Part shown: piece by piece, positions 4,358 to 26,455 of the stretch
How positions within the stretch are numbered: position 1 is the first letter of the stretch
Layout: each line of letters opens with the position of its first letter
Source: a virus
DNA: 26,455 bases
Virus record (IMG/VR): IMGVR_UViG_3300027668_002649
Span: 1 to 26,455 of that record
Reading direction: 5' to 3' (one strand)
The notes under the pieces: generated by a model
Database searches by the model: none
Told to the model about the DNA's origin: nothing
What the model saw: the letters and a program-made list of their open reading frames with translations, nothing else
Position numbers and translations under genes: made by a program

Positions 4358-7051
4358 TTACCATTCAAATAGATCTGTAAATGTGTTTTTAGCAGATGCT
4401 TTATCTAGGTCCCATTTTAACACACCTAATAAGTTTTCTAGCTTTTTAGTTACAACTGTGTATTCCATATGATCATCATCAAACGGAAGTGCCTTAAACC
4501 ATTCAGGGAGTCGGGTTTCATCTGTGGGATAACCTACACTTGTAAAGCCCATTGGATTATCTTTTAACCTACATACAACAGTTTTCATACCATCTGTAAT
4601 TTCGTTAGCATAGTTATCACTGTTAATCTGACGTAACTTATTCCAATTAAGTGCAGCTGTAACGTGTCCTGGCATTGCTGGTTTTTTAACCTCTGCAACA
4701 CTCTTGCCTGTTTCTTGCGCTCGTTTACGATCCTTATCATACCTTGCCATTTTGCCACGATAGTTTGTTAGATTGTTAACACGCTTTGGACTACCTTTTT
4801 GCCAGCTAGCTTTTTCTCTATACTCTCCGCGGAACTCAATAATACGTTTAAGTATTTCTTCTTCTTCAGTTCCAGTTAATACTTTAAGTAATAGCTCGCT
4901 TAAAAAGGCTTGCATCCAAGGTGGTGTATCACTGCGCTTTAAGTCTAAGCCCATTGCTTTAATGTAACCAGCCTTTCCATCTGTATCTTCACGCTTGCCT
5001 TCGTTGTCAAACACTAGCATTGCATAACGCTTCTTTGTAATAAACAAGCCTGCACTTCCGACCATTTCTCGCCCTGCGGCAATAATACTACCTAGCTCAA
5101 GTGTTGTGTGAAATGTTCTGCTCATAAAGCCTGGAAATGTTTTACTTACTTCTTCGCATACTGCATCATAGTAAGCAATAATATTATCTCTGCCCCAGTC
5201 TATTTCACCTTTCTTAATTTGTTCTTTTAGCATAGGATACGCACTAAAGTATGTGGAATCAGTATCACCGTATACAATTGCATCGCCTTGATGATCATAC
5301 ACGCCTGCCATAATTTGATTAATTTCAGCAGCCATATGTTTAGCAATGCTACGCCCTGTTAGTGTTGTACTTTGTCCTAGTCGACTATCAAAGAATCTAC
5401 TACCTGGATTAAGTAACGCACCATATAATGAGTTCAAGTTAATCTTTTTAACCAACTGTCGTTTATCCCAATATGCAAATTCATCACCGCCTTTTTCACG
5501 TGCATCACGTGCTTTAGCTTGTAGTTCTTTACGTTCAGCATACCAACGTTCTAGTAATCCAGGAATAATACCTTTTTTCTCATGTGTAAAGATTGTGCCG
5601 TTAGCACTAATAATCCAAGGTTGTCCACTGTTGAACACAATCTCGTAGATCTCTGCGCCAGTCGCTTCAAAACTAGTTCCATCTTCAAAGTCGAGATGTA
5701 AGATTTCATCAATGTCTTTATTAATTACTAATTCATATTCCTTGCATGCAAACTTTCCTTCCCACGCCTCTGCAACTGTACGTGCATTTTCAATCATTTC
5801 TTTAGTGTAAGTATGCCGTACCTGCCCAATAATAGTTTCAGTACTCATATTACAACTACGCAATATACTAGGATATAGCGAGTTAAGGTCAATACTGCCT
5901 ACGTCTTTGTGTATACCTTTTTTAGGTGTTGCAACATATGCACCAGCGGCTTGTGTTACATCTTTATCGTAACGCTTGTCAGGAACAATTAACCCTTGTA
6001 TGTGTGCTTCGTTCATAATAGCTTGGTCTGTTTGTGCAACAGCACCCATTGTTGTTTGTAACAATACTGTGTTAGAATGTGCTAGTACATTAGCTAAGTC
6101 AATAAACTGTAGCTTCTTATCTAGTTTTACAAGCAAGTCAACATCTTGTCTAGAGTATGCAATAAACTTCTCAAAGTCATTATTAAACAATTGGTCCAGT
6201 GTACCTTCGTATTCTACTTTACGCTCGCCAAGTTCGTATTCACCAATTGCATCCAACGAATAACTATGCATTTCATGATATGTGTACTTACGATAAAGTT
6301 GCATGTAATCCATATGTACACGCCCAATTGTATCGTAGGTCTGATTCTCTGCACCAAAGCGTTCAAATCTACGTTCCCTAGGAAACTTATCCCATAAACA
6401 GAATTTACGTGTATGGCTTTTACTTAATACACGAGCTACACGATTTACCATGTATGGAATATCAAAGCCTTCACTGTTCCAACCAGTTAGGATGTCTGCA
6501 TCATCAATAAGATCTAAAAATGCTTCAAGCATATCACGTTCAGTTGCAAACAACATAGTGTTCTCAAACTTATTAGTAATTTCTTCTGCTGCATCGTGTG
6601 TTAATGTCTTAGGCGCAATTGCAAGACAAATAGTTGTATCCATCCAACTGTTATGTAAACTAATTGCTGTTACTGAATGAAACGGATCTTCTGGAGGCGC
6701 GAAGCCTGTTTTCTTGTCAAAGTCAGTCTCAATATCAAAGAAACAAACATTAAGATCTGGCACACTAGTAGGATCATAATTTTCTGCAAACGTTTTAAAT
6801 ACAACGTTTGTATCACTTTCATACAGTCCTTTGTGTCCGTGTATTTTCTTTTCAGTGTTAAACTTCTTACTTGTATTACATACAACACGTTCTAGCTTTT
6901 CGCCGTAAATGCTTGTATGTTTGCCACGTGCATCTCTGTAGTAAAAGGTATACTTTGCAGGAATTTCTTTGTACTCTCGTCTACCATTTACACGTTCTAC
7001 AACATGTACAATATCTTTATCTTTGTTATGAAATGCGTCTACGTAACTCAT
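4358..7051 (-). CDS. 43: DNA polymerase, family B, T4 gp43-like
   Basis: Replicative DNA polymerase with proofreading (897 aa, about the size of T4 gp43). The 3'-5' exonuclease comes first: Exo I FFDIETDFD (D106, E108), Exo II TGWNSEGFDIPY (about 189-200), Exo III YSRQDVD (Y299, D303). Polymerase motifs follow: motif A DLNSLYPS (388-395), motif B KINLNSLYGALL (about 536-547) and motif C YGDTDS (594-599). The C-terminus ends FTDLFEW, resembling the sliding-clamp-binding tail of gp43. The ATG at 7051 overlaps the TGA of the upstream radical SAM gene (ATGA), indicating coupling; a TTG 12 bases upstream is less likely. A sigma70-type promoter inside the end of that gene (7091-7118) gives independent transcription. 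All catalytic residues are intact, so an active enzyme is expected. Confidence 0.97.
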   Translation of the reverse strand: MSYVDAFHNKDKDIVHVVERVNGRREYKEIPAKYTFYYRDARGKHTSIYGEKLERVVCNTSKKFNTEKKIHGHKGLYESDTNVVFKTFAENYDPTSVPDLNVCFFDIETDFDKKTGFAPPEDPFHSVTAISLHNSWMDTTICLAIAPKTLTHDAAEEITNKFENTMLFATERDMLEAFLDLIDDADILTGWNSEGFDIPYMVNRVARVLSKSHTRKFCLWDKFPRERRFERFGAENQTYDTIGRVHMDYMQLYRKYTYHEMHSYSLDAIGEYELGERKVEYEGTLDQLFNNDFEKFIAYSRQDVDLLVKLDKKLQFIDLANVLAHSNTVLLQTTMGAVAQTDQAIMNEAHIQGLIVPDKRYDKDVTQAAGAYVATPKKGIHKDVGSIDLNSLYPSILRSCNMSTETIIGQVRHTYTKEMIENARTVAEAWEGKFACKEYELVINKDIDEILHLDFEDGTSFEATGAEIYEIVFNSGQPWIISANGTIFTHEKKGIIPGLLERWYAERKELQAKARDAREKGGDEFAYWDKRQLVKKINLNSLYGALLNPGSRFFDSRLGQSTTLTGRSIAKHMAAEINQIMAGVYDHQGDAIVYGDTDSTYFSAYPMLKEQIKKGEIDWGRDNIIAYYDAVCEEVSKTFPGFMSRTFHTTLELGSIIAAGREMVGSAGLFITKKRYAMLVFDNEGKREDTDGKAGYIKAMGLDLKRSDTPPWMQAFLSELLLKVLTGTEEEEILKRIIEFRGEYREKASWQKGSPKRVNNLTNYRGKMARYDKDRKRAQETGKSVAEVKKPAMPGHVTAALNWNKLRQINSDNYANEITDGMKTVVCRLKDNPMGFTSVGYPTDETRLPEWFKALPFDDDHMEYTVVTKKLENLLGVLKWDLDKASAKNTFTDLFEW

Positions 7052-8220
7052 GCTTTTATCCAATAAGGTTCTAATTCGGGTATATAGTTTATTATACTTG
7101 TTTTTCTGTGTTTGTCAAGTATATCAGTGGTTTTACAGAAGAATTTCCAGTCATCTATGTCTTCTTCTGTACGCTCTATTCTAAGAGAATGTATTAATGC
7201 TGTTAGTGTTGGGTAATTAATTTCTATGAAATTTGCTAGTTCTTTTTTATACTCAACATCAGGATGTACACTCATACGCAAGTATCTAGGAAATGCTAAT
7301 GGACTATTAAATAATTGATGATGCTTAAAATGTTTACTAGCCCATTCTAAGTATTCTTTAATATTATATACGTTGAGCAATTGTGGGGTATATGAAATAG
7401 CAGTTTTAAAATATTGAGAAACTGTTTCAATTCTATTTTGTATTTCATCTCCTTTGTATTTTCCAAATGGAGTGCTTGGGCGTATATATTCGTATAACTT
7501 ATTAGCACCATCTAAACTTATAATAAGCAACGTATCTAATTTCTTTAGCTTTTTAACTGTATCTTCTTTTACTAATGTAAGGTTTGTTATGATTTTTAGC
7601 TGTCCTTTGTAATTGTGTTCGATTAATTTATCTAGTAAATAATTGAATTGAGGAGTGTAAAAAGGTTCGCCTCCACTAACATCAATTAATCCAGCATTAA
7701 GAAACTCTACTAAATTATCATCAACTACGCTATCTGATAGTCCATATTCTCTTCCTTTTGGATTAAAGATTGCTCTGCCAACTTCATCGCCCAATGCTTT
7801 GTCTAATACTTTAGCATCTTTATACCAGCCTGTACTGCGGTGCGGACTACACATTGTACATCTAAGATTGCATGCATTGCTAAAATCTATTTTAATCTTT
7901 CGTAGTTTACCTGGTTGTTGCTCAGGAAACATTTCAATAAATTCTTCATAGTTTGAATATCGCATACTGCCTGTAGTAGATGATTCACCACTAACACATA
8001 ATTCACATCCAGTAGGTAAAATATTATTAACTGTTTGTCGTTGTGCTAGATAATACTCGGTTCCTTTGAAAGCTTCTTTAATAGTCATATCTTTAATATT
8101 GCCAACAAACCCCTTGTGTATACAACAAAAGCCAATACGGCCTTCTTGGTCAACGTGTACTTCATTATGCGGACTTACGCAATATGTATTATCTACTGTT
8201 GGTTTATTTTCTAAAGACAT
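7048..8220 (-). CDS. Radical SAM protein with N-terminal cysteine (twitch-like) domain, copy 1
   Basis: A 390-aa radical SAM enzyme that should bind a 4Fe-4S cluster and cleave S-adenosylmethionine to the 5'-deoxyadenosyl radical. The cluster motif is CNLRCTMC (C117, C121, C124), and the SAM-binding GGEP follows in VSGGEPFYTP. Before the core is a cysteine set C14, C32-C33 and C72-x-x-C75, the pattern of an auxiliary-cluster 'N-twitch' domain. The ATG at 8220 has GAAGGTG just upstream; an in-frame TTG at 8232 is less likely. It overlaps the methyltransferase gene by 17 bases and the polymerase by 4. The substrate is unknown; auxiliary-cluster radical SAM enzymes commonly modify peptides or act on sugars and nucleosides. 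Two paralogues lie at 18978-21369. Confidence 0.9.
   Translation of the reverse strand: MSLENKPTVDNTYCVSPHNEVHVDQEGRIGFCCIHKGFVGNIKDMTIKEAFKGTEYYLAQRQTVNNILPTGCELCVSGESSTTGSMRYSNYEEFIEMFPEQQPGKLRKIKIDFSNACNLRCTMCSPHRSTGWYKDAKVLDKALGDEVGRAIFNPKGREYGLSDSVVDDNLVEFLNAGLIDVSGGEPFYTPQFNYLLDKLIEHNYKGQLKIITNLTLVKEDTVKKLKKLDTLLIISLDGANKLYEYIRPSTPFGKYKGDEIQNRIETVSQYFKTAISYTPQLLNVYNIKEYLEWASKHFKHHQLFNSPLAFPRYLRMSVHPDVEYKKELANFIEINYPTLTALIHSLRIERTEEDIDDWKFFCKTTDILDKHRKTSIINYIPELEPYWIKA
7091..7118 (-). promoter_or_regulatory. Internal sigma70-type promoter for DNA polymerase
   Basis: TTGACA (7118-7113) and TATAAT (7096-7091) with a 16-base spacer on the minus strand, inside the last 25 codons of the radical SAM gene. 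It lies about 40 bp before the polymerase ATG. Confidence 0.75.
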
Positions 8221-9316
8221 AGACACCTTCAAACTTTTCCCTTCCTTCTAATTTATTATTACCTGCACCTGGTCTTGTATTTAACATCATTTTAATAGTA
8301 CTAGTATGCTTAAACCCGATCTTTTCAGCAGTTTCAATCCATTTGTCTACTACTAGTACAGGTTCTTTTTGACTGTATGTTTTATAGTCTGCAATGTTTG
8401 TTGCAAATATTCCATCATCATTTAAACCTTTGTATATACTTTGCATAGTAGGCGCAACATATCCTTCAAACCATTCATCTAGTGTAGTGTAGTTTACCAT
8501 ACACTGTGTAGGCTCATCACTATATTTTTCCAAGTTAAAGTAAGGCGGGCTACTAAATGCTAAATCAATATCTTCACTTTGATAGTCTTCGCTTGTGCTA
8601 CATACAATTTCACTGTCACTATTTAAAAAACTATCTAAATAGTTTAAGTAATCAAATGTTTCTGTATTAGGATCTGTGCCAACATAAGTGTAGCTCATGT
8701 TACTACTGCTTATGCCAAGTAGCCTTCCACCGTAACCACAGCTATAATCGTAAATACGACCCCATAGCACCGGGCATAAATGTTCTACAATAGCCCGTGC
8801 ATTTTGTGCTTTAAAGTTAGTAACGTTCTCACCTGTAACAAGCTCTAAGCTTCTACGCATTGCTGTAGGATATATTAGCTTGTTGCCTTCACGAAATTCA
8901 AAACAAATGCGTATAGCACGTTTAAGTTTTTTATCATCATGGAACCTGTCCATTAGACTGTTTGAACCTCTGCCTTTGGGTTCTGCTGTTTGCATGTTTG
9001 TAAAGATAAACCTGTTAAGTGTTTGCCCTGCGTTGTTGCCTAATCCTAGTCTATTACCTTCAACATTATTGTAGGGACGCTTTCTAAAGGAACCAACTGC
9101 TTCTTTAATTCCTTGCTCGGTGAAGTATATAATAGGAACAAGACCTCTACTGCGATACAACTCAAACACACGTTCAATAGTACCAGTAGGATCTGCATCA
9201 TATACTTCTTTAGTGAATGTATCAAATTCTGGGTACAAGTCTTCGTATCCAGTAAACTCATCAGCAAAGATGTGTTCAGCTTTAATGCCCCAGAATTTGT
9301 GTATACGCTCAATCAT
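8204..9316 (-). CDS. DNA methyltransferase (SPPY type, N6-adenine or N4-cytosine)
   Basis: A 370-aa SAM-dependent methyltransferase, probably acting on an exocyclic amino group of DNA. The SAM-binding motif I is DYSCGYGGRLLG (about 190-201), followed by an acidic GTDPNTETFDY, and the catalytic motif IV is SSPPYFNLEKY with SPPY at 256-259. The order I then IV fits the alpha/gamma classes. About 180 residues before motif I include GSNSLMDRFHDD and other conserved-looking blocks, perhaps for target recognition. No restriction endonuclease is next to it, so it is an orphan phage enzyme, likely for protection from host restriction or for regulation. It overlaps the radical SAM gene downstream by 17 bases. 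Base specificity cannot be told from sequence. Confidence 0.85.
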   Translation of the reverse strand: MIERIHKFWGIKAEHIFADEFTGYEDLYPEFDTFTKEVYDADPTGTIERVFELYRSRGLVPIIYFTEQGIKEAVGSFRKRPYNNVEGNRLGLGNNAGQTLNRFIFTNMQTAEPKGRGSNSLMDRFHDDKKLKRAIRICFEFREGNKLIYPTAMRRSLELVTGENVTNFKAQNARAIVEHLCPVLWGRIYDYSCGYGGRLLGISSSNMSYTYVGTDPNTETFDYLNYLDSFLNSDSEIVCSTSEDYQSEDIDLAFSSPPYFNLEKYSDEPTQCMVNYTTLDEWFEGYVAPTMQSIYKGLNDDGIFATNIADYKTYSQKEPVLVVDKWIETAEKIGFKHTSTIKMMLNTRPGAGNNKLEGREKFEGVYVFRK

Positions 9317-15174: not shown

Positions 15175-15471
15175 TTACCTCTTATTAATGCCACGACTGT
15201 TCGTACCGCCGCGTTTTCTAATTTCTTCTAATTCTGTATAAGTATCTGATATTGCTTTTAACATTGTCTGAATTAAACCTTTATTAAGATTGTGTTCTAC
15301 ACTTTCCCAATTGCCGCTTTCAGCTGTCTTAGCTAATTCAGAAAACATTCTAACTACTTTTGCTTCTAATTGGCTTAATTGTAATCTACCATATCCTTGA
15401 ATTAATACTTCAGGATCCATTTGGTTTTCTTTATTACGTGCATAAATGCTTTCTAATTGGTTTAAATTCAT
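15175..15471 (-). CDS. Small helical protein (98 aa)
   Basis: Unrecognised, almost entirely helical, with Gln/Glu/Leu-rich segments (LQLSQLEAKVVRMFSELAKT) and a Gly/Arg-rich basic end (RKRGGTNSRGINKR) that could touch nucleic acid. The ATG overlaps the TGA of the upstream MKIND gene (ATGA), so expression is coupled to it. Belongs to the structural block by position. Confidence 0.7.
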   Translation of the reverse strand: MNLNQLESIYARNKENQMDPEVLIQGYGRLQLSQLEAKVVRMFSELAKTAESGNWESVEHNLNKGLIQTMLKAISDTYTELEEIRKRGGTNSRGINKR

Positions 15472-15674
15472 CTTTTAATAACCTTTACTTCTTCAGTGTA
15501 GCCAACGCTTTGTTTCTTTCGTTTGCCATCACCTAAGTATCCTTTCGGATCAACAGCCTTTCTAGCTGCCTTTTTTGTAGTACCTGGCGTCATAGGGAAC
15601 GAAACACTGGCAACATTGCCAGACATTGTGCTTCCTGCATCCGCCTCTTCGGTTATAATATCATTAATCTTCAT
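15468..15674 (-). CDS. Short protein with MKIND-type targeting peptide (68 aa)
   Basis: Begins MKINDIITEEADAG, one of the clearest members of the window's shared N-terminal peptide, with a possible protease site I-T-E|E at 7-9. The rest has a STMSGNVASVSFPM segment resembling the S-x-x-x-G-N-V-A stretch of other small marine-phage proteins, then a basic tail (KKAARKAVDPKGYLGDGKRKK). No ribosome site is present: the late motif GATAAATA ends five bases before the ATG, so a leaderless transcript is likely. Probably a head-internal or DNA-associated peptide. Confidence 0.75.
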   Translation of the reverse strand: MKINDIITEEADAGSTMSGNVASVSFPMTPGTTKKAARKAVDPKGYLGDGKRKKQSVGYTEEVKVIKR

Positions 15675-17095: not shown

Positions 17096-17287
17096 TTACT
17101 TATCCATTAGTTTAACTATTCTAGGTTTGAATAATTTTTGATCGCCTTTGGTTGTTTTTAATACAGGCTGATTGTTTTCGTCTGTTGCGAATCCTGTTAC
17201 TGTGGCTTTACGGTTTTTGAACTTTCCTACTAGTATCTCGTCACCGATCTCTATAGCAGGTAGTTGTAGTACGTCTTTTATTTTCAT
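17096..17287 (-). CDS. Small SH3/KOW-like beta protein (63 aa)
   Basis: MKIKDVLQLPAIEIGDEILV followed by KNRKATVTGFATDENNQPVL and a terminal KPRIVKLM. The pattern of short strands with conserved Gly-Asp and a basic strand resembles a small beta-barrel of the KOW or SH3 type. The first six residues resemble the MKINEV peptide, but it lacks a clear I-x-E. It overlaps the metalloprotease-like gene by four bases (ATGA). Confidence 0.7.
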   Translation of the reverse strand: MKIKDVLQLPAIEIGDEILVGKFKNRKATVTGFATDENNQPVLKTTKGDQKLFKPRIVKLMDK

Positions 17288-18303
17288 TTCGGGGTAGCCT
17301 TTTTAATTACTGGCGGCTTGCTCTGTTTGGGTTTTTGCCAATTCTTAGGTACATCGTTATAATGCTTACCTAATTTATTTTTTGGAACAGTACCTCGTTT
17401 AGCAACATTAGTTGGGTCTTGCATAGGATCAGATGTGATGTCAGTTGCATATGGATTGTCGTGAATTGTTAGCGGATTAAGATCGCTTTGATTGCTTCCT
17501 GGCGTAGTAGTATCAACGTTATTATTATAGGTTATAGCATTTTTTCGTTTTTGTGTTATCAAGTGATTAGTGTCTGTTGGTGTTGGTGTTGGCATTGCTG
17601 CTCTTTGTTGAAATGACAGTTCTCGTCTTTCTGCTGTCTTTCGAGCGTATGCTTCTTTAGAAAATGCAAGATATTGGTCATAGTCTGATAATCCATTTGG
17701 ATTATTACGCTGGTTAACCGGAGTTACGTATTCATGATTATTTGGTTTTTCATAAGATTGAGCTACGTGTTCTAGTTCATGTACAGCGACATCTAAATAA
17801 TCTTCCCATTCGTTATATTCATTGCCTGGAACAGATGGTTTTTTTGCAAGAGATATTGTATTGTTGTATTGATCCCACGATCCATCAGCTCCATCCATGT
17901 CTTTAGGATCCAAAAATTCAACTGTAGTATTTTTCCACTGTGGGTAAGCAGCTGAAAGTTCAGAATGAGAAAAAATATCTGTTGCTTTAAATGAAGATCC
18001 AGTTTTGATACTAGTCGGATCAATTTTAAACTCAAAATTCTCATCACTTATTTCTTGTCTCCAATCACCATTGACATTTCTATAAGTTCCAGTATCATGC
18101 CATATTTCATCTCGGTGGGCTCCATTTTTTTCCATTTGCTGTGCCAGGCGTGCTAGTGTGTTGTTAAAGTTTTTTGCATTAGGCCCAATGTTAATTGCTA
18201 GCTGATTTTCTGCGTTTCTATCAACAGGCGGCATTTTAAATGAGCTACTGTCAGGTACCTTAATGTTAGGAAACTTTTCTGTTATTACTTCATTAATCTT
18301 CAT
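17284..18303 (-). CDS. LPD23-like zincin metallopeptidase with MKINEVITE targeting peptide
   Basis: A 339-aa protein that probably cleaves peptides with zinc. AVHELEHVAQSYE holds H175-E176-x-x-H179 (HExxH), and a later EAYARKTAERREL (about 217-229) could supply the third ligand. Upstream blocks EIWHDTGTYRNVNGDWRQEI and HSELSAAYPQW, then a Gly-Ser-x-x-Tyr-Asn turn (GSWDQYNNTISLAK), match my recollection of the LPD23 family (large polyvalent protein-associated domain 23). The N-terminus MKINEVITEK carries two I-x-E sites (INE, ITE). The C-terminal third is Pro/Thr/Asn/Lys-rich and likely disordered. It shares TAATG with the gene before it. A packaged protease acting in the head or in the host is plausible. 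Confidence 0.8.
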   Translation of the reverse strand: MKINEVITEKFPNIKVPDSSSFKMPPVDRNAENQLAINIGPNAKNFNNTLARLAQQMEKNGAHRDEIWHDTGTYRNVNGDWRQEISDENFEFKIDPTSIKTGSSFKATDIFSHSELSAAYPQWKNTTVEFLDPKDMDGADGSWDQYNNTISLAKKPSVPGNEYNEWEDYLDVAVHELEHVAQSYEKPNNHEYVTPVNQRNNPNGLSDYDQYLAFSKEAYARKTAERRELSFQQRAAMPTPTPTDTNHLITQKRKNAITYNNNVDTTTPGSNQSDLNPLTIHDNPYATDITSDPMQDPTNVAKRGTVPKNKLGKHYNDVPKNWQKPKQSKPPVIKKATPK

Positions 18304-18750: not shown

Positions 18751-18960
18751 TTATTTATCTTCTGCTACGAGTCCTAGGTTGTATAGCGTGTGCGGACTGC
18801 TATTTTTACTTGCTTTCTTATGCAAGGGCTTAATTTTACCATTACCAAACTTTGCGGCTTGACGCTCAGTTTCGCCTGGTTTAACATCTACTGTAGTGTT
18901 AACACCTGGGACTATTACACCGTCTTCTGTTATTGTAGTAATTACTTCGTTAATTTTCAT
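18751..18960 (-). CDS. Short protein with MKINEV targeting peptide (69 aa)
   Basis: Begins MKINEVITTITEDG with possible protease sites I-N-E and I-T-E|D. The rest contains VPGVNTTVDVKPGETERQAA, KFGNGKIKPLHKKA and a final SPHTLYNLGLVAE, a combination I recall in short virion-associated proteins of marine T4-like phages. A late motif GATAAATACTT lies 22 bases upstream and AAGGA is in the leader. Likely a small head-internal or structural protein. Confidence 0.78.
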   Translation of the reverse strand: MKINEVITTITEDGVIVPGVNTTVDVKPGETERQAAKFGNGKIKPLHKKASKNSSPHTLYNLGLVAEDK

Positions 18961-18977: not shown

Positions 18978-20207
18978 TTAAGTATTTATCGATTTATACA
19001 AATTAACAAACACTTTATTCCAGTTTGTTCCTCGTATCTCATCTAACTTTTCTACAAACTCTGCACAAGTGTATGGGTTACTGTCATAGTCAATATGAAC
19101 ATTTAAATAGTTTATTAAATGCAATAGCTTATCTTTGTGTATTGAATTAGCATACATGTCTATAATATCTAATTTTGCTTGCCTAGGAAGGTGCTTTGCA
19201 TCAAACATATCAGGAGCTGATAGTATTCGTATATTGATATAATAATTATCAAAATGGTCTAGCAATTTTAAAAATGTAAATGCATTAAGAATTTGCCAAG
19301 TAACACTTATTTCTATCTGTGTATTAGGTAATACACTGTCAATACGTTTAACATTCTCATCTAGTTTATACCATTTACTTGGAAAGCGTATATAATCATT
19401 TTGTTCACCAAAATCATCAATACTTACTCTAAGCATTAACTTTTTAAAATGTTTCCATTGGTCAATTGCACGTTGATGTACGTTTGTAATGTTTGTGTCA
19501 TACTCTAGTGTAACATTGCCTGCTACACCTGCATCTATTAGCTTTTGCAAAAATACATAATGATGTTCTATAAGCATAGGTTCGCCACCAACAAGATAAA
19601 CATGTTCCAGTTGATCCATGTTGTTTTCTAGCTGTTCCCAAAAGTGTTCACTTTGCCACCAATCATATTCCGATGCATGATCATTCCCTTGTTGTTTCTT
19701 TCCGTCCGTGATGTTTATCTTTGTACCACTGTCGTAAAAATGATCGGTGTTGTGAACTTTTGCCCAGTCCTTGTACCACATGTTACTGCTTTGCGGTCCA
19801 CACATTACACATTTTAAATTGCATAAGTTGCCAAACCTTAGATCCCAATATATAGGCATCTGTGTTGTACTTCCATCGGGTTCTGTTAGTTGTACTGCTT
19901 TGTCGTAATCAAATGTATCTTTGTACATTTTATTTGTAAATGTGCGTCTGCTTTTTCCGCCAGCATCTTCCTTAATCCAACATGTACTACACTCATCGGG
20001 CCGTTCACCTGCAAGAAACTGCTTACGAATCTTACGAGTAAATTCACTATTATGTATTTCTTCTATTGTATGATTTTTAAAATTGTGTCCAGTAAGCCCA
20101 CCATCACCTTCTTCGTGATTGCTCATTAAACAACAAACTCTGCTGGTTCCGTTTGTTTTACTTGCTGTATGTATCCAAGGAATGGAACAAAAACTATTCT
20201 TCTGCAT
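18978..20207 (-). CDS. Radical SAM protein with N-terminal cysteine (twitch-like) domain, copy 2
   Basis: A 409-aa radical SAM enzyme. The core motif is CNLKCVMC (C129, C133, C136), with LVGGEPMLIE as the GGEP SAM-binding strand and RVSIDDFGEQN downstream. The N-terminal domain holds C7, C25-C26 and C73-x-x-C76, the same spacing pattern as its two relatives. I start it at MQKNSFCSIPW (20207), 14 bases inside the upstream gene, with GGAG close by; a longer reading to 20285 adds residues without a ribosome site. It is co-transcribed with copy 3 from 21388-21416. Differences outside the motifs indicate separate substrates or partners rather than a recent duplicate. Confidence 0.88.
   Translation of the reverse strand: MQKNSFCSIPWIHTASKTNGTSRVCCLMSNHEEGDGGLTGHNFKNHTIEEIHNSEFTRKIRKQFLAGERPDECSTCWIKEDAGGKSRRTFTNKMYKDTFDYDKAVQLTEPDGSTTQMPIYWDLRFGNLCNLKCVMCGPQSSNMWYKDWAKVHNTDHFYDSGTKINITDGKKQQGNDHASEYDWWQSEHFWEQLENNMDQLEHVYLVGGEPMLIEHHYVFLQKLIDAGVAGNVTLEYDTNITNVHQRAIDQWKHFKKLMLRVSIDDFGEQNDYIRFPSKWYKLDENVKRIDSVLPNTQIEISVTWQILNAFTFLKLLDHFDNYYINIRILSAPDMFDAKHLPRQAKLDIIDMYANSIHKDKLLHLINYLNVHIDYDSNPYTCAEFVEKLDEIRGTNWNKVFVNLYKSINT
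18983..18990 (-). promoter_or_regulatory. T4-type late promoter motif (GATAAATA)
   Basis: The minus strand reads GATAAATACTTAAAACAAGGAT before the ATG at 18960. The motif is identical to that at 15680-15687 through GATAAATACTT, and it is placed inside the end of the radical SAM gene. A normal leader with a ribosome site follows. Confidence 0.7.
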
Positions 20208-21369
20208 CGCTCCAAATCCATTCAGCCAATTGTGGATCAAAGTTATCATATTTAACTGGCCCATTCTTGTCATAATAATCAACAAACTTTCTTACTGTAA
20301 GTTTACGTTTCATATCATTATTAAATGGCTTTCGCATTTCATTAATAACGTGATCAACTCCTTCTAGTTTATTCTTATGTTCTTCAAAGAACGCTAAACT
20401 TTCTGCTTTAAATCTATCAGGAATGTTTTCCATAAGTACCTCTGTTTTATTAATCACTGGTCTTATTTGTACTTTTACATCTGGGTATGTTTCCCATAAG
20501 AATTTAATTAACTTAGGAATAGATCTAACACTTAACGCATTAGCAGTAACATCCCAAACTTTTAATTTAAAGTGTTTATGATACTGTTTCATTACTTCTA
20601 ATGTTTCGTCCCAACAAATGCCTTGTCTTGTCCATTCGTTTGATTGTGCCCACCCATCAACACTAAATCTTAAATATACATTTTCAACAGTTTTAAGTGT
20701 TTTTAAATCTTTTTCTCTTAACAAACGGGTCCCGTTTGTATTAATAACAAACCGCGCCTTGGGTGCTAATGCACCTAATCTTTCTACCGTACTTGGAAAG
20801 TTCTTAAGATAAAATGGTTCGCCGCCTGCTAAGTATACATGCTTTAAATTTTTATCTACACTTGAAATAATATTATCCCACGCCACTGGATCGTCACTCC
20901 AATCATAATTACGTTTGTGATATTTTTCTGCTTCTTTTTCTAATCTGCCTGGCTTCCAATCAAAATGTGTTGCCATTGTTTTATGATTATGTAATATTTT
21001 ATTACTGTTACCTGCATAACACATAACACATGCTAAATTACATACGTTGCCTAGTCTTAAATCTAATGCATGAATTTTTTCATCTGCAAACGGAACTCCG
21101 TTATTAATCATTCCAAGTGCTTTTTGCCTGAAGCTACGTATGCCATCTCGTTCTGGATCATAGCATTTAAAGCAACCTGCTGGTTCGCCACCTGCGGCAA
21201 TCTCTGCTCGTACTGCATGCATTTCTGGGCTGTTCCAAATATCACTAAGTTTGTGTTCTTTAATATGATATGGAAGTTTATGTTTTAGGTTTTTACAACA
21301 TAATGCTACATATCCGTCATTGTCAACGAATGTAAAATTATTTGTATATATACAATATTTGTCTGTCAT
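20194..21369 (-). CDS. Radical SAM protein with N-terminal cysteine (twitch-like) domain, copy 3
   Basis: A 391-aa radical SAM enzyme. The cluster motif is CNLACVMC (C110, C114, C117), with LAGGEPFYLK as the GGEP strand, VINTNGTR and RFSVDGW as later core strands. The N-terminal domain has C6, C24-C25 and C66-x-x-C69. It is the first gene behind a strong sigma70 promoter and overlaps copy 2 by 14 bases, so the pair is expressed together. No obvious short precursor peptide with a leader lies beside it, although small unannotated frames could exist. A modification of peptide, sugar or nucleoside is possible. Confidence 0.9.
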   Translation of the reverse strand: MTDKYCIYTNNFTFVDNDGYVALCCKNLKHKLPYHIKEHKLSDIWNSPEMHAVRAEIAAGGEPAGCFKCYDPERDGIRSFRQKALGMINNGVPFADEKIHALDLRLGNVCNLACVMCYAGNSNKILHNHKTMATHFDWKPGRLEKEAEKYHKRNYDWSDDPVAWDNIISSVDKNLKHVYLAGGEPFYLKNFPSTVERLGALAPKARFVINTNGTRLLREKDLKTLKTVENVYLRFSVDGWAQSNEWTRQGICWDETLEVMKQYHKHFKLKVWDVTANALSVRSIPKLIKFLWETYPDVKVQIRPVINKTEVLMENIPDRFKAESLAFFEEHKNKLEGVDHVINEMRKPFNNDMKRKLTVRKFVDYYDKNGPVKYDNFDPQLAEWIWSDAEE

Positions 21370-21423: not shown

Positions 21424-21699
21424 TTAGTTTGAGTTTGTAATTACAGGATCAAAATTATCAAGGTAGTATTTTTCTAATGCTTTATGATCAACATCTCTAT
21501 GTCCGCCAGCTAATTTCATTACGTACCAGCCTAATGCATGTCTAAAATGTCCGCCATTTTCTTCTTGCTTACGCAATAGTACAGCATGTAATTTTTCTGC
21601 AACTTTTTGATACTTGTTATGTTGTACAACTGGTGCCATTTTTCTTTTAAGTAATTCCCAAGGACTAGCTTCGTTTGTTGTTACTTCATTAATTAACAT
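21424..21699 (-). CDS. Small protein with MLINEV targeting peptide (91 aa)
   Basis: Begins MLINEVTTNEASPWELLKRK, a variant of the shared N-terminal peptide with I-N-E. The rest is a compact helical domain with conserved-looking EENGGHFRHALGWYVMKLAG and a His/Asp segment HRDVDHKALEKYY. The ATG overlaps the stop of the 1080-aa gene by one base (TAATG), with AAGGA inside that gene's end. Coupling suggests that the two are made together. Function unknown; head-internal location is inferred from the peptide. Confidence 0.75.
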   Translation of the reverse strand: MLINEVTTNEASPWELLKRKMAPVVQHNKYQKVAEKLHAVLLRKQEENGGHFRHALGWYVMKLAGGHRDVDHKALEKYYLDNFDPVITNSN

Positions 21700-24600
21700 T
21701 ATAATTCATCCTTAATTTCGTCTGGAATACCAATGTCTTTAATTACGTGGTTATCTTTAAAGCCTTGTATAACATAAGCCTGTGCTTCCTTAGTCCAATT
21801 CTTTTTCATTGCTGTTAGTAATGATTCAAAACTATTTAAATCTGTACTACTGTCTAGTTTTAACACTTTTGCAATTTCATCTGGTTGTTTCCAAGGGCCT
21901 TCAATTGTTTCGTTGTTATTTTTCTTAGTATATCCTTCGCCAGTCTTTTTAGGAACAGGTGTACGCTTAACACGCAATAGTCCTTCTGTTGGGCTCCACA
22001 TATAGCGTCTTTCTTCCATAGCTCTACCATCGTCTAATTTAGCATCACTCAGTTGTCTATCAAGTACTGATGCCATTGATGCAATCATTATGTTGCGATA
22101 TACGCCTTTGTATTTTGATTCTTCTTCACTTGGCGAATGATAATAAGTTTTCATCCAACCTGGGTCGCCTGGCATAAAGTCTACCTGTACAAATCCTGTA
22201 CGTGGTCTACCATCTGTTTTAGATTCATCAAAGTCTGTAATTTTTACCTTTGTCATAATAACACTGCTCTTAGCAATGTCCAATACTAATGGATTCTTTT
22301 TAAGTGCTTCAATAAATGCTGGTAATTCTTCTGTTTTAATATCTAATGCAACGTCAATGTCACCGCTAAACTGTCTTTTACCAACACTACCTAACACATG
22401 ATTTTTTAAGTCTACACCAATGGACTTTTCTAATGCTTCTAGTGTAGGGTTAATTTCATCTATGTGTATTGCTCCGACACCTGGCATTGCTCCGCCCTCT
22501 GTAATCATAAAGTATTTTTTAACTAGATTTTCATTTTCAAATGTGCCATATTTTTGAACCCACTTGTATAGATTTGTTTTCCAAAGATCATTCATGCCGC
22601 CAGTTCCAAAGTTCTTCTTGCTAATTTTCTTTGCTGTTCGTTTCTTGTTATTATCAGTATTATTAGTATTATTTGTTGCGGCTGCTGCGGCTGCTGTTGC
22701 GGCTGCTGCGGCTGCTGTTGCTGTTGCGACTTCCGGTGGATTAAGTACACTAGGTGGTGCTAATCCTGTTGGAACTGATGTTGTAACTGAGGTAGGTGGA
22801 TTAAGTACACTAGGTGGTGCTAATCCTGTAGGTATTACAGTATTTGCAGTTGCCGCTGCATATGCTGTAGCAAGTGCAATAAGTTTTGCATCACTAGCTG
22901 TTGTTTGAGCATTTGTTTTAGCTGTTATTTGTGCATCTTTATATGCTTGTCCAAGTGCAATAAGTTTTGCATCACTAGCTGTTGTTTGAGCATTTGCTTT
23001 TGTTTGTGCATTTTGTTGTGCTACTTGTTGTCCAAGTGCAATAAGTTTTGCATCACTTGTTGCATTTTGAGAATCTATTTTATTTTGTTGTGCTACTTGT
23101 TGTCCAACTGCAATAAGTTTTGCATCACTAGCTTTAGTTTGTGCATCTGCTTTTGCTTGTGCATCTGACGCTGTAGCTCTTTGATCTATTCTATCATTCT
23201 GATATTCGTCATGTGCTGTTTGTTGTGCTGCTGATTTAGCAGTTGCTGCCGCTTTATCTGATGCACCAGCTATACTAGCTATTCTATCATTTTGATATTC
23301 GTCATGTGCTGTTTGTTGTGCCATAGATTTTGCTAGTGCTGCTTCTGCATCTGATGCACCAGCTATACTAGCTATTCTATCATTTTGGAATGTAGCATGT
23401 GCTTGTGTTTGTGCTGCTGATTTAGCAGTTGCTGCTGCTTTATCTGATGCACCGGCTACACTAGCTATTCTATCATTTTGATATTCGTCATGTGCTGTTT
23501 GTTGTGCTGCTGATTTAGCAGTTGCTGCTGCTTTATCTGATGCGCCAGCCACACTAGCTATTTTATCATTTTGATAAGCGTCATTTGCCTGTTGTGCGTT
23601 CGTGGCTGCTATTGCTGTTCCTAATGCTATAAGGTTGTTATCACTAGCTCGGGTTTGTGACATTGCTTTAAAATCTGCATCTGATGCAGTTGCTATGCTG
23701 TCTATTCTACTATTTTGCAGTGTGGCATGTGCTGTTTGTTGTGCTGTTGCTAATGCTAGTGCCGATGCTTTATCTGATGTATCTGCTATAGCTTCTATTC
23801 TGTTATTTTGCATCGTAGCATGTGCCAATTGTGCTTGTTGAGTGGCATACTCGGATCCGATTGCTATTAACTTTGCATCACTTAATTCTGTTGCTCTTAA
23901 ATCTGCTTGTGTTGCTGCATATGCTGTACCAAGTGCTATTAAATTTTTATCACTTAATGCTGTTGCTCTAGCATCTGCTTGTGCTTGTGATATTTCAGTT
24001 GCTAGTGCTATAAGCGAAGCATCGCTAACTTTAGTTTGTGCATCTGATTTTGCTTGTGCATCAGATGTATTTGCTATTTGTGCTATTCTGTCATTTTGTA
24101 TTTTGGCGTTTGCTGTAGCAATTTGTTGATTTTTTGCTAATGTGGCAGTGTCTATATTATTATTTTCAATTGCAGTATCAACTAGTGTGTCGATACCTGT
24201 TGTTAGTTCTGTATTCAATGCGACAGTAGTGTCTACTACCATTGCATCGTCACTGATGCTCATGTCTTGTACGCCTCTAACTTTATCCCATAGTTGGTTA
24301 GCTACTAAAGCAGATGCTGCCATCTTTCTTTCAAGCCAAGGAAATTCACCTGGATTAGCAACAATATATGCCGCTGCGGTGACTGCTGTAAACTTTACTC
24401 CAAACCATGCTGCTTGTGCATACCTAGCATATACATATGCTTGCCATGCTATAATACCAATTGGTACTGCTAGTGCTGCAGGGCCTGCTTCATTAAGTTG
24501 TTGTATAGACTCAAATACTTGTTTGTGTTGTGTGTTATCTAATGAATAGTCATGTGATTGAACTTCAAACTCTCTATTAGATGTTTTAAAATTCTTCTTA

Positions 24601-24941
24601 CGCATTACTGTTTTAGCAATAAGATCTAGTTCATTATTAGCTGAATCCCAACGTAATGCAAATGGTACATTAAGATCTGTTGCTAAATCTTTAAGTACTG
24701 CTTCTGCATCTGGGCCTAGTTGTGCAATAGGCTTGCCCCAACGTTTGTATTCTTGTTTAAATAGACGAGTAAGCTCGCTTGCTGTAATTTGTTTTACATT
24801 ACGATCATCATTAACTCTATCTAAGAAATGACGGGTGAATTCTACATCAATACCAACTTTTGCGAATAATCTATCTGCAAAAATCTCTAATTGATCTAGT
24901 TCTACGTGTGATAAGTGTTTGTCTACTTCATTAATTCTCAT
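21699..24941 (-). CDS. Giant protein: targeting peptide, conserved phage domain, tandem repeats and C-terminal nucleotidyltransferase
   Basis: A 1080-aa protein. MRINEVDKHLS opens it (start chosen at 24941, where AGGAAATGG precedes). Residues about 25-120 hold GIDVEFTRHFLDRVNDDRN and VMRKKNFKTS, a conserved block of marine T4-like phages. About 152-199 contain hydrophobic, Ala-rich helices that could insert in a membrane. About 265-695 are tandem repeats of two kinds (SDAKLIALG and NDRIASIAGASD), Ala/Gln-rich and probably coiled coil, then an Ala/Thr/Asn linker with two PTGLAPPSVLNPP copies. The C-terminus has a polymerase-beta-type nucleotidyltransferase: LGSVGKRQFSGDIDVAL (G851-S852, D861, D863) and FVQVDFM (D921). 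The layout suggests a packaged or ejected effector or a virion scaffold enzyme. The target nucleotide acceptor is unknown. Confidence 0.82.
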   Translation of the reverse strand: MRINEVDKHLSHVELDQLEIFADRLFAKVGIDVEFTRHFLDRVNDDRNVKQITASELTRLFKQEYKRWGKPIAQLGPDAEAVLKDLATDLNVPFALRWDSANNELDLIAKTVMRKKNFKTSNREFEVQSHDYSLDNTQHKQVFESIQQLNEAGPAALAVPIGIIAWQAYVYARYAQAAWFGVKFTAVTAAAYIVANPGEFPWLERKMAASALVANQLWDKVRGVQDMSISDDAMVVDTTVALNTELTTGIDTLVDTAIENNNIDTATLAKNQQIATANAKIQNDRIAQIANTSDAQAKSDAQTKVSDASLIALATEISQAQADARATALSDKNLIALGTAYAATQADLRATELSDAKLIAIGSEYATQQAQLAHATMQNNRIEAIADTSDKASALALATAQQTAHATLQNSRIDSIATASDADFKAMSQTRASDNNLIALGTAIAATNAQQANDAYQNDKIASVAGASDKAAATAKSAAQQTAHDEYQNDRIASVAGASDKAAATAKSAAQTQAHATFQNDRIASIAGASDAEAALAKSMAQQTAHDEYQNDRIASIAGASDKAAATAKSAAQQTAHDEYQNDRIDQRATASDAQAKADAQTKASDAKLIAVGQQVAQQNKIDSQNATSDAKLIALGQQVAQQNAQTKANAQTTASDAKLIALGQAYKDAQITAKTNAQTTASDAKLIALATAYAAATANTVIPTGLAPPSVLNPPTSVTTSVPTGLAPPSVLNPPEVATATAAAAAATAAAAAATNNTNNTDNNKKRTAKKISKKNFGTGGMNDLWKTNLYKWVQKYGTFENENLVKKYFMITEGGAMPGVGAIHIDEINPTLEALEKSIGVDLKNHVLGSVGKRQFSGDIDVALDIKTEELPAFIEALKKNPLVLDIAKSSVIMTKVKITDFDESKTDGRPRTGFVQVDFMPGDPGWMKTYYHSPSEEESKYKGVYRNIMIASMASVLDRQLSDAKLDDGRAMEERRYMWSPTEGLLRVKRTPVPKKTGEGYTKKNNNETIEGPWKQPDEIAKVLKLDSSTDLNSFESLLTAMKKNWTKEAQAYVIQGFKDNHVIKDIGIPDEIKDEL
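22735..22829 (-). repeat. Two direct copies of a 35-bp repeat, 60-bp period, in the giant gene
   Basis: Two copies of a 35-bp segment (22735-22769 and 22795-22829), identical along their length. They encode the linker peptide PTGLAPPSVLNPP. The identity at DNA level suggests a recent duplication. Confidence 0.85.
22871..23115 (-). repeat. Tandem repeat of 81 bp (27 aa), C-terminal repeat class
   Basis: The sequence CAAGTGCAATAAG (plus strand) recurs at 22871, 22952 and 23033, exactly 81 bp apart, then in a variant 72 bp on at 23105. Each unit encodes SDAKLIALG plus an Ala/Gln-rich helix. Confidence 0.85.
23188..23600 (-). repeat. Tandem repeat of 93 bp (31 aa), about 4.4 copies
   Basis: The plus-strand sequence ATTCTATCATT (last copy ATTTTATCATT) begins at 23188, 23281, 23374, 23467 and 23560, a constant 93-bp period. 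Units encode NDRIASIAGASDKAAATAKS and AAQQTAHDEYQ and are nearly identical in DNA, so the array is young or homogenised. Single units could be gained or lost in frame. Confidence 0.92.
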
Positions 24942-24942
24942 A

Positions 24943-25401
24943 TTACCATTTCCTACAACTCCAATATCTCGCTTTAGTTTTTGGTCCTGGATTATCACAG
25001 TTATGTCTTGCTCTGAAACTCTTACGTGCTTTAGGATTAGACTTACGAATTTTCATAGTCTTCTCACCTTTTGCTTTAGCACTTGTTCCACCGTGTCCAA
25101 AGTTAACCTTAACTACGTTACCTTTATCATTCTTAACGTAAACCTTAAACTTCTTAACATCGCCTCTTGTGGGTTTGTTTAGTTTAACTGTACGTCCTTG
25201 ATACTCTGCTTCAAATAATTCTGTTTCACATAAACTGTACGCTAGATATCCAAAATGTTCATGGAAGTCTTCATGATCCTCTAATGTGATTTCACTTTCT
25301 TTAACGCAATTGTTTACACGCTTGCCTTTGTTTTTGCCTGTGCCAGATTTAGTTCCATCTTTTTTGTAACCATCCCAACAATCTATTTCATTTATCTTCA
25401 T
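24943..25401 (-). CDS. MKINE protein with Cys and basic C-terminal phage domain (152 aa)
   Basis: Begins MKINEIDCWDGYKKDGTKSG, then KGKRVNNCVKE. The C-W-x-G-Y-x-x-D-G-T-K ... V-N-N-C pattern is recurrent in T4-like marine phage proteins (from memory). The C-terminal part, from FEAEYQGRTVKLNKPTRGDVK through VYVKNDKGNVVKVNFGHGG to NPKARKSFRARHNCDNPGPK and RYWSCRKW, is basic and likely a compact domain, with two more cysteines. No ribosome site precedes it; a CATAAATA late motif ends five bases before the ATG. Probably a packaged or structural protein. The stop is two bases from the start of the giant gene. Confidence 0.82.
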   Translation of the reverse strand: MKINEIDCWDGYKKDGTKSGTGKNKGKRVNNCVKESEITLEDHEDFHEHFGYLAYSLCETELFEAEYQGRTVKLNKPTRGDVKKFKVYVKNDKGNVVKVNFGHGGTSAKAKGEKTMKIRKSNPKARKSFRARHNCDNPGPKTKARYWSCRKW

Positions 25402-25789: not shown

Positions 25790-26011
25790 TTATTTTCCCG
25801 TTGGTTTTTCGCCAGTTAGATGAGGTTTTGAAAACCAAAGTTGAAACCATTCATCTGTGCCAGGCTGTATTTTCTTTTCTCGTTGAATTCTTCCTTTGTC
25901 ACTTCCAGTAATACTAATATTACTACCGGTGGGTGATTTAGATGCTTTTTTGCCATCTTTGTCAAGTATTCCAGCTAGTCGCTGTAATTCATAAATTTCA
26001 TTTATTTTCAT
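25790..26011 (-). CDS. Short MKINE protein (73 aa)
   Basis: Begins MKINEIYELQRLAGILDKDG with I-N-E and a helical continuation. The middle is Ser/Gly/Lys-rich (SKSPTGSNISITGSDKGR), and the end has PGTDEWFQLWFSKPHLTGEK, a tryptophan motif recurrent in marine T4-like phage proteins (recollection). The ATG shares ATGA with the cysteine-rich gene upstream, and AGGAG is present. Probably head-internal or structural. Confidence 0.78.
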   Translation of the reverse strand: MKINEIYELQRLAGILDKDGKKASKSPTGSNISITGSDKGRIQREKKIQPGTDEWFQLWFSKPHLTGEKPTGK

Positions 26012-26139
26012 TTAGACGCTCCTAAGTATCTTTTATTGCATCCACATTTACATCCTGCTTTGCAATCACAATCTGCTACTCTATGTCCACATGAGCACCA
26101 TTCTTCTTTTTGAGTTTGCTTGAATATTAATTTAGGCAT
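26008..26139 (-). CDS. Cysteine-rich metal-binding-like peptide (43 aa)
   Basis: A short gene starting MPKLIFKQTQKEEW, then CSCGHRVADCDCKAGCKCGC. Seven cysteines, five of them in Cys-x-Cys pairs, and one His lie within 20 residues. The density matches metallothionein-like or zinc-binding peptides, with the rest of the chain polar and basic. TTGGAG lies just before the ATG, and the TGA overlaps the next ATG (ATGA), so it is translated with the MKINE gene. It could buffer zinc or iron, or form a tiny zinc module. Metal and role are not shown by sequence. Confidence 0.68.
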   Translation of the reverse strand: MPKLIFKQTQKEEWCSCGHRVADCDCKAGCKCGCNKRYLGASK

Positions 26140-26152
26140 TGCTCCAATTGGA

Positions 26153-26455
26153 TTAATCTTCATCTTCGTTATCCACTTGTTTTTCTAATTTAGAAATAGT
26201 AGTAGCTACACTGCTATCTGCATGTTGGATCCCTATGCCACCTGCACTTTCCCACTTACTAATGTTTTCACCAAAGTCATCAATTAATCCATTCGGAGTC
26301 CCGTCTGCTTGTTTAGCATATGCGGCTTTATTAGGATCAATAATAATCTTTGTAGGTGGAAACATACTTAAATGCTTTTGAATCCATGCACGTTTTTGTG
26401 GTTCTGATTCTGGATCACCTGGAAGGGGAGCACTTAGTATATTATATTTTCCTTT
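26153..26455 (-). CDS. HAD-superfamily phosphatase/nucleotidase-like protein (N-terminus outside window)
   Basis: The open frame runs through the right end of the window, so only the C-terminal 100 residues are visible. The later HAD motifs appear: motif II-like ILSAPLPGDPESE, motif III K and its following strand (TKIIIDPNKAAYAKQ), and motif IV GLIDDFGENISKWESAG with two adjacent Asp. This layout fits 5'(3')-deoxyribonucleotidase-like or polynucleotide-kinase-type phosphatases. The nucleophile motif DxD must lie upstream, beyond the edge. An internal ATG at 26365 is not the start; the frame continues in a conserved way before it. Role in nucleotide metabolism is inferred. Confidence 0.8.
   Translation of the reverse strand, partial: KGKYNILSAPLPGDPESEPQKRAWIQKHLSMFPPTKIIIDPNKAAYAKQADGTPNGLIDDFGENISKWESAGGIGIQHADSSVATTISKLEKQVDNEDED

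Follow-up and report, generated by a model that had tools for sequence, protein, structure and literature searches.

The 26,455-nucleotide stretch analysed here (the window) is itself an IMG/VR virus record. It encodes a T4-type family-B polymerase that shares 44–48% identity with the enzymes of such large phages as Phosso, Atu_ph07, CBB and 121Q. The phage is a giant or large T4-like phage from an aquatic setting. Its protease gene is a real open reading frame (ORF), as the preliminary description had proposed, and lies on the minus strand, which that description had not given. The product joins an LPD23 domain to a zincin-type metallopeptidase and starts with a short label that recurs on neighbouring genes. 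The features of the locus are collected in Table 1.

Table 1. Features of the protease gene and of the tagged ORFs in the window.
Feature	Position	Strand	Remarks
LPD23-zincin metallopeptidase ORF, capsid-targeting-like N-terminal tag	17284..18303	-	ATG start, 339 aa
Tag MKINEVITE, residues 1–9, predicted capsid targeting sequence	18277..18303	-	predicted prohead-protease cut after E9, P1' = K10
LPD23 domain (PF18838), residues 40–93	18025..18186	-	Pfam score 42.7 bits, cut-off 27 bits, E 4.8e-11
HELEH active-site motif, residues 175–179	17767..17781	-	model helix 162–185; invariant in relatives
E217, predicted third zinc ligand	17653..17655	-	model helix 207–225; GE[AV]EAR in relatives
C-terminal tail, residues 246–339, low confidence	17287..17568	-	net basic (15 K+R, 7 D+E); model and composition
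Tagged ORF, 68 aa, MKINDIITE	15468..15674	-	orthologs in G024, G025, G026, G027, G030
Tag-like ORF, 63 aa, MKIKDVLQLP	17096..17287	-	directly downstream of protease gene; orthologs in G024, G026, G027, G030
Tagged ORF, 69 aa, MKINEVITTITE	18751..18960	-	C-terminal part behind other tagged N-termini in G026, G027
Tag-like ORF, 91 aa, MLINEVTTNE	21424..21699	-	
Tagged large protein, 1080 aa from internal ATG (MRINEV)	21699..24941	-	nucleotidyltransferase-like C-terminal domain
Tagged ORF, 152 aa, MKINEIDCWDGYKK	24943..25401	-	
Tagged ORF, 73 aa, MKINEIYELQRLAGI	25790..26011	-	ortholog adjoins protease gene in L124
Possible tag remnant, 51 aa, MKINPIGAMP	26008..26163	-	Cys-rich C-terminus

Starting from the enzyme, the blocks W68-HDTG-TYR75 and E115-L-SAAYP121 and the HELEH at 175–179 all stand where the preliminary description had placed them, and the likeness to LPD23 that it had drawn from them is borne out by a Pfam match above the curated cut-off, as well as by a match at the DNA level (46.2 bits). 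HELEH itself falls outside the 58-residue Pfam domain, within the adjoining zincin. A single-sequence scan returned no close relatives, so a profile scan of IMG/VR was used, which gave 80 viral relatives and, with the window protein, an 81-sequence alignment. In this alignment H175, E176, H179 and D87 are 100% conserved, E217 and Q182 99% and Y211 98%; the same seven residues are invariant in a 52-sequence alignment. E217 sits in a GE[AV]EAR motif, and its conservation suits the third metal ligand of PolyVal zincins. The window protein departs from its relatives in carrying HELEH in place of a near-universal HExQH, and in an unusual insertion between HExxH and E217.

The AlphaFold model has a pLDDT above 90 over most of residues 40–150, the LPD23-zincin core, and places HExxH and E217 on separate, successive helices, matching the description of PolyVal metallopeptidase (MPTase) domains (PMC5512222). 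The best structural match in the PDB is IrrE/PprI, at a weak Z of 6.8 (below 8), followed by the VgrG2b effector domain, a DPC-repair protease and selecase, with ArdC lower down; these matches are mostly HExxH zinc metallopeptidases, all of them weak, with Foldseek E values above 0.1. A PDB sequence search gave weak IrrE matches only, and the BFVD matches include several phage proteins whose names refer to large polyvalent protein domains. The window protein is not itself a large multidomain polyvalent protein, which requires at least two effector domains: its 339 residues hold a single LPD23-zincin module and no second Pfam domain at cut-off. From its conserved residues and the model it is very probably an active-type zincin with predicted zinc-dependent proteolysis. 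Searches of the open literature found nothing on LPD23 function.

The preliminary description regarded a compact, stand-alone LPD23-zincin as unusual. Such proteins turn out to be common in phages, as the majority of the 80 viral relatives are encoded by stand-alone ORFs of about 300–460 residues, often adjoined by terminase and portal genes; for this module, compactness is therefore nothing new, nor is a link with packaging. Within the same phage clade, HExxH is kept by the close homologues, as HELQH in L124 and HEWQH in L337 (2507–3529), rather than lost.

The N-terminal tag is shared more widely in the window than the enzyme, a recurrence that the preliminary description had missed. Besides the protease, the ORFs at 15468, 18751, 21699 (from an internal ATG), 24943 and 25790 start with M[KR]IN[ED][VI]; near variants open the ORFs at 17096 and 21424. 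The tag is present on at least six window ORFs including the protease, and all tagged or tag-like ORFs lie within 15.4–26.2 kb, a cargo island. One segment, GVNTTVDVKPG.., is found at the C terminus behind different tagged N-termini (window 18751–18960, L335 19226–19750 and L337 6379–7374), which suggests shuffling within the island. A short two-cysteine motif, CW.GYKK ... NNC, recurs right behind the tag or close to it on many otherwise different proteins, among them the window ORF at 24943–25401 and proteins of L032, L056 and L106. The T4 late-promoter octamer TATAAATA is absent from both strands of the window (0 found, 4.6 expected by chance), so that late expression gets no support. The window also encodes radical-SAM/SPASM proteins at 7048–8232, 18978–20285 and 20194–21369, and the SPASM load of the clade is unusual, with 18 matches in the 184-kb relative G030, 12 in the 80-kb G025 and 0 in four isolates.

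Across IMG/VR, MKINE[VI]ITE is found in at least 119 stretches, and nearly all matches are ORF starts. With the label removed, 118 tagged proteins fall into 27 unrelated clusters, on which Pfam recognizes PARP/ART-like, GGACT and GNAT domains; in G030, tag-like starts are borne by poly(A)-polymerase-type (CCA-type), NT5C and zeta-toxin-type kinase proteins, the first two being enzymes usually considered cytoplasmic. A chance N-terminus is rejected: MKINE has no exact match in eight related or reference isolate genomes (approximately 2.9 Mb), none of which has an MKINE start, compared with four MKINE starts in the 26-kb window. We found no isolate that carries the commonest tagged family, and no mention of the MKINE label in the open literature. 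Tag codons follow background usage, which places selection on the protein rather than on the DNA and leads us to reject a translation-level or DNA-repeat explanation of the tag.

The last residues of the tag resemble a protease site. I7-T8-E9 in the window protein fits the L/I-x-E site after which the T4 prohead protease gp21 cuts (PMC9026906). Because the IMG/VR scan had fixed I-T-E, the site was assessed on an unselected set of ORFs starting with M[KRL][ILVM]x[ED][ILVMF], with residues 7–9 left free; [IL]xE occupies these residues in 15 of 72 ORFs with tag-like starts, against 35 of 1112 other ORFs. The following residue, never selected in the tag scan, is A, G or S in 47 of 82 tagged proteins, compared with 427 of 1640 at residues 11–30 (P = 7e-9; about 7e-4 with one representative per cluster). 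The window protein has Lys at this P1' position, which is rare there (4/84). As for the setting of tagged genes, a 15-kb stretch of G030 holds 5 of its 6 tagged ORFs (P = 0.0009). A neck or head–tail adaptor gene directly precedes 24 of 85 tagged genes, only a few bases away, and a head-and-packaging virion gene directly precedes 13 of 85.

Where the head module of a tagged contig is complete, an S77 gp21 and gp23 are present, in T4 order in G001, G003, G004 and G006, where L-x-E is kept before mature gp23. The window, a 26-kb fragment, has neither gene; its close relatives too are fragments that lack the head module, and no S77 match was found in the closest 184-kb relative, which may be incomplete. 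In the 354-kb contig G002, gp23 matches are scattered fragments at 151–154 kb and 354 kb, perhaps split genes or introns. A small ORF between the portal and a gp67-like gene starts in a tag-like manner with MFLNEVF, MLIYEFF, MLLQEFF or MLLQEFW in L246, L247, L351 and L352.

The comparison that gives these features a meaning is with the internal head proteins of T4, which are injected from the head and disable host restriction systems, and whose ip genes were found through a shared N-terminal label (PMC12373910). IPII and IPIII start with MKTYQEFIAE and Alt with MELITELFDE; ten residues at the N terminus of IPIII are enough for targeting, a step that can be separated from processing (PMC9026906). 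IPI is encoded as a 95-residue ORF and is 76 residues long when mature (PMC3012670), from which a cut after I-T-E at residues 17–19 is deduced, the same tripeptide that ends the tag. As with the capsid targeting sequences (CTS) of IPI, IPII, IPIII and Alt, the label is N-terminal and about ten residues long (longer in IPI), with the MK start of the IPs; a short hydrophobic-x-E site precedes the mature protein, the cargo is otherwise unrelated, the genes are accessory, and S77 gp21 and gp23 occur in tagged contigs with complete head modules. The two systems differ in the label itself, a nine-residue MKINE(V/I)ITE rather than MK[TS][FY]xxFxxE, and in the cargo, here a metallopeptidase and many other enzyme families. 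They also differ in that packaging is here read from sequence and the sites vary between orthologs.

The two kinds of N-terminus interchange on homologous cargo. A domain with the motif WSxKYK follows MKINEIITE/T in L041 and MKSFKQFQE/S in cyanophage Bellamy; a domain with FGRxNPPTxGH follows MRIFEILSE/A in L014 and MKSFFQFLSE/A in S-SM2 (43% identity; 41–43% for S-SM2 and P-TIM68); and the FADRL domain, N-terminal in the 1080-residue window protein, follows MRINEV there and LKTFLQF in Melnitz (68% identity). In one phage group, three cargo domains thus bear the MKI-type label, and in Kyanoviridae and their relatives the same domains have T4-type MK[ST]F starts. Among Kyanoviridae proteins of unknown function, many start with MK[ST]F..F(x)E, which makes this start a candidate for a label of the T4 type (T4 gp61.1 starts with MKTFKEFIKE), and cyanophage S-SRM01 (MW015081) has eight MK[ST]F..F starts; by analogy with T4, these cyanophage starts may be capsid-targeting sequences.

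A further connection runs to a virion protein. The C-terminal domain of the 1080-residue tagged protein matches EST35_0231 of Pseudomonas phage PA5oct (29% identity, E = 5e-18), which, like the preceding EST35_0230, is annotated as structural and was detected by ESI-MS/MS; EST35_0230 starts with MRLDEI. What links the two is homology; the virion detection belongs to the PA5oct protein. Unlike in the window, the PA5oct domains are on separate ORFs, and the searches made there found no LPD23-zincin.

Head delivery of such an enzyme, which the preliminary description offered as a new use of the domain, had in fact been predicted in 2017, when Iyer et al. proposed packaging and injection for phage polyvalent proteins that contain zincin MPTase domains; the packaged phage N4 vRNAP carries such a domain (PMC5512222). 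As in the PolyVal zincin MPTases with LPD domains, the window protein has LPD23, then HExxH, then a downstream helix with Glu, and is phage-borne with predicted delivery alongside the DNA. It differs in being a stand-alone protein with a T4-type label, in HELEH rather than HELQH, in the insertion before the third ligand and in the basic, low-confidence C terminus.

How the protease relates to the label can be followed among its orthologs. Where its gene sits within the island differs between the window, G024 and G027, and the 184-kb relative G030 lacks it. The clade orthologs start with MKITEITNLK (G024) and MKINEITKKE (G027), both MKI[NT]EI, whereas the tag is found on none of the 57 relatives outside the clade that have a callable ORF. 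Among 23 other tagged contigs, LPD23 occurs in none except the sister G024, which makes the protease a rare cargo. The differing place, the absence from G030 and the clade-only label are the expected look of an accessory, recently labelled cargo. Both G024 and G027 orthologs lack [IL]xE at residues 7–9; cleavage is therefore not conserved and, with Lys at P1' in the window protein, is less certain than targeting.

We propose that the protein is an LPD23-linked, PolyVal-type zinc metallopeptidase that is packaged as a T4-type internal head protein and ejected into the host, a reading of the sequence that we consider probable. The title claim of the preliminary description, an LPD23-like zinc metallopeptidase whose N-terminus resembles a capsid-targeting sequence, finds support in conservation, the fold model and the tag comparisons, which liken that N-terminus to those of T4. 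Against the packaging reading count the lack of gp21 and gp23 in the window, the Lys at P1', the unconserved site in the orthologs, the cytoplasmic type of some tagged enzymes and the lack of MKINE starts in the eight isolates. The proposal builds on an observed LPD23 domain, zincin motif, shared tag, position-specific protease-site signature and interchange between the tag and T4-type N-termini. During assembly, the tag MKINE(V/I)ITE would bind the prohead core, as the first ten residues of IPIII do in T4, and that it acts as a capsid-targeting sequence appears likely, with good confidence, from its distribution and its T4 counterparts. A gp21-type prohead protease would then cut after I-T-E and free the enzyme inside the head; a cut exactly after E9 is favoured on the site signature, with some reserve. 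At infection the enzyme would leave the head with the DNA and, in the new host, zinc held by H175, H179 and E217, with E176 as general base, would allow it to cleave a host protein. This zinc and general-base chemistry is well supported by the conserved residues. The target would most likely be a defence or takeover protein. Presence in the virion and action on host proteins are what we infer from these observations.

Two other accounts of the label and the enzyme are each improbable, yet deserve weight. According to the first, the tag does target the prohead, and the zincin is a second maturation or cargo-processing protease inside the head, for example trimming tagged proteins, an option that Iyer et al. 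listed for PolyVal zincins (PMC5512222) and that agrees with the terminase and portal genes beside the relatives. One would expect constancy of a maturation protease, however, and this one is accessory, moving within the island and missing from G030; it also consists of one enzyme module and has no further domain that it could release. We lean towards action in the host over action in the head, with reasonable rather than high confidence. According to the second, MKINEV is some other shared N-terminal feature, serving partner binding, intracellular localization or late-gene translation, and the protease is cytoplasmic late in infection. That several tagged proteins are ordinary metabolic enzymes, and that I-x-E is not kept at the same place in orthologs, would suit this account. 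A purely DNA or mRNA signal is hard to square with the background codon usage, and the protease-site and P1' signatures, the interchange with T4-type N-termini and the head and neck operon context are all predicted by packaging.

It is much less probable that the zincin fold is retained and proteolysis lost, leaving a binding-only or inhibitor-like domain: the replacement of HExQH by HELEH and the unusual insertion point that way, but the window protein and the two clade orthologs retain every catalytic residue. That the tag serves the adjoining radical-SAM/SPASM enzymes as a leader peptide, as two SPASM genes inside the island (18978–21369) and the SPASM-rich clade might suggest, is hardly credible and largely refuted, since the tagged contigs G001, G004, G005, G007 and G008 (the last three possibly fragments) have no SPASM match and the cargo consists of large folded proteins rather than small peptides.

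Returning to packaging and injection, we think it rather likely, judging from sequence, that MKINE(V/I)ITE is a second, undescribed capsid-targeting code across aquatic giant T4-like phages, a mark carried by dozens of unrelated cargo families that are packaged and injected, the LPD23 metallopeptidase among them. Systems of this kind are known; in searchable papers, neither the label consensus nor such a breadth of labelled cargo appears to have been described. If the proposal is right, the injected protein set of a phage could be read from metagenomes, and a second label in uncultured giant phages would allow candidate injected effectors to be listed from sequence. The LPD23 zincin and the ART-like, GNAT, GGACT and nucleotidyltransferase-like proteins would provide defined cargo families for counter-defence tests, and whether phage-injected proteases act before any phage gene is expressed would become a testable question.
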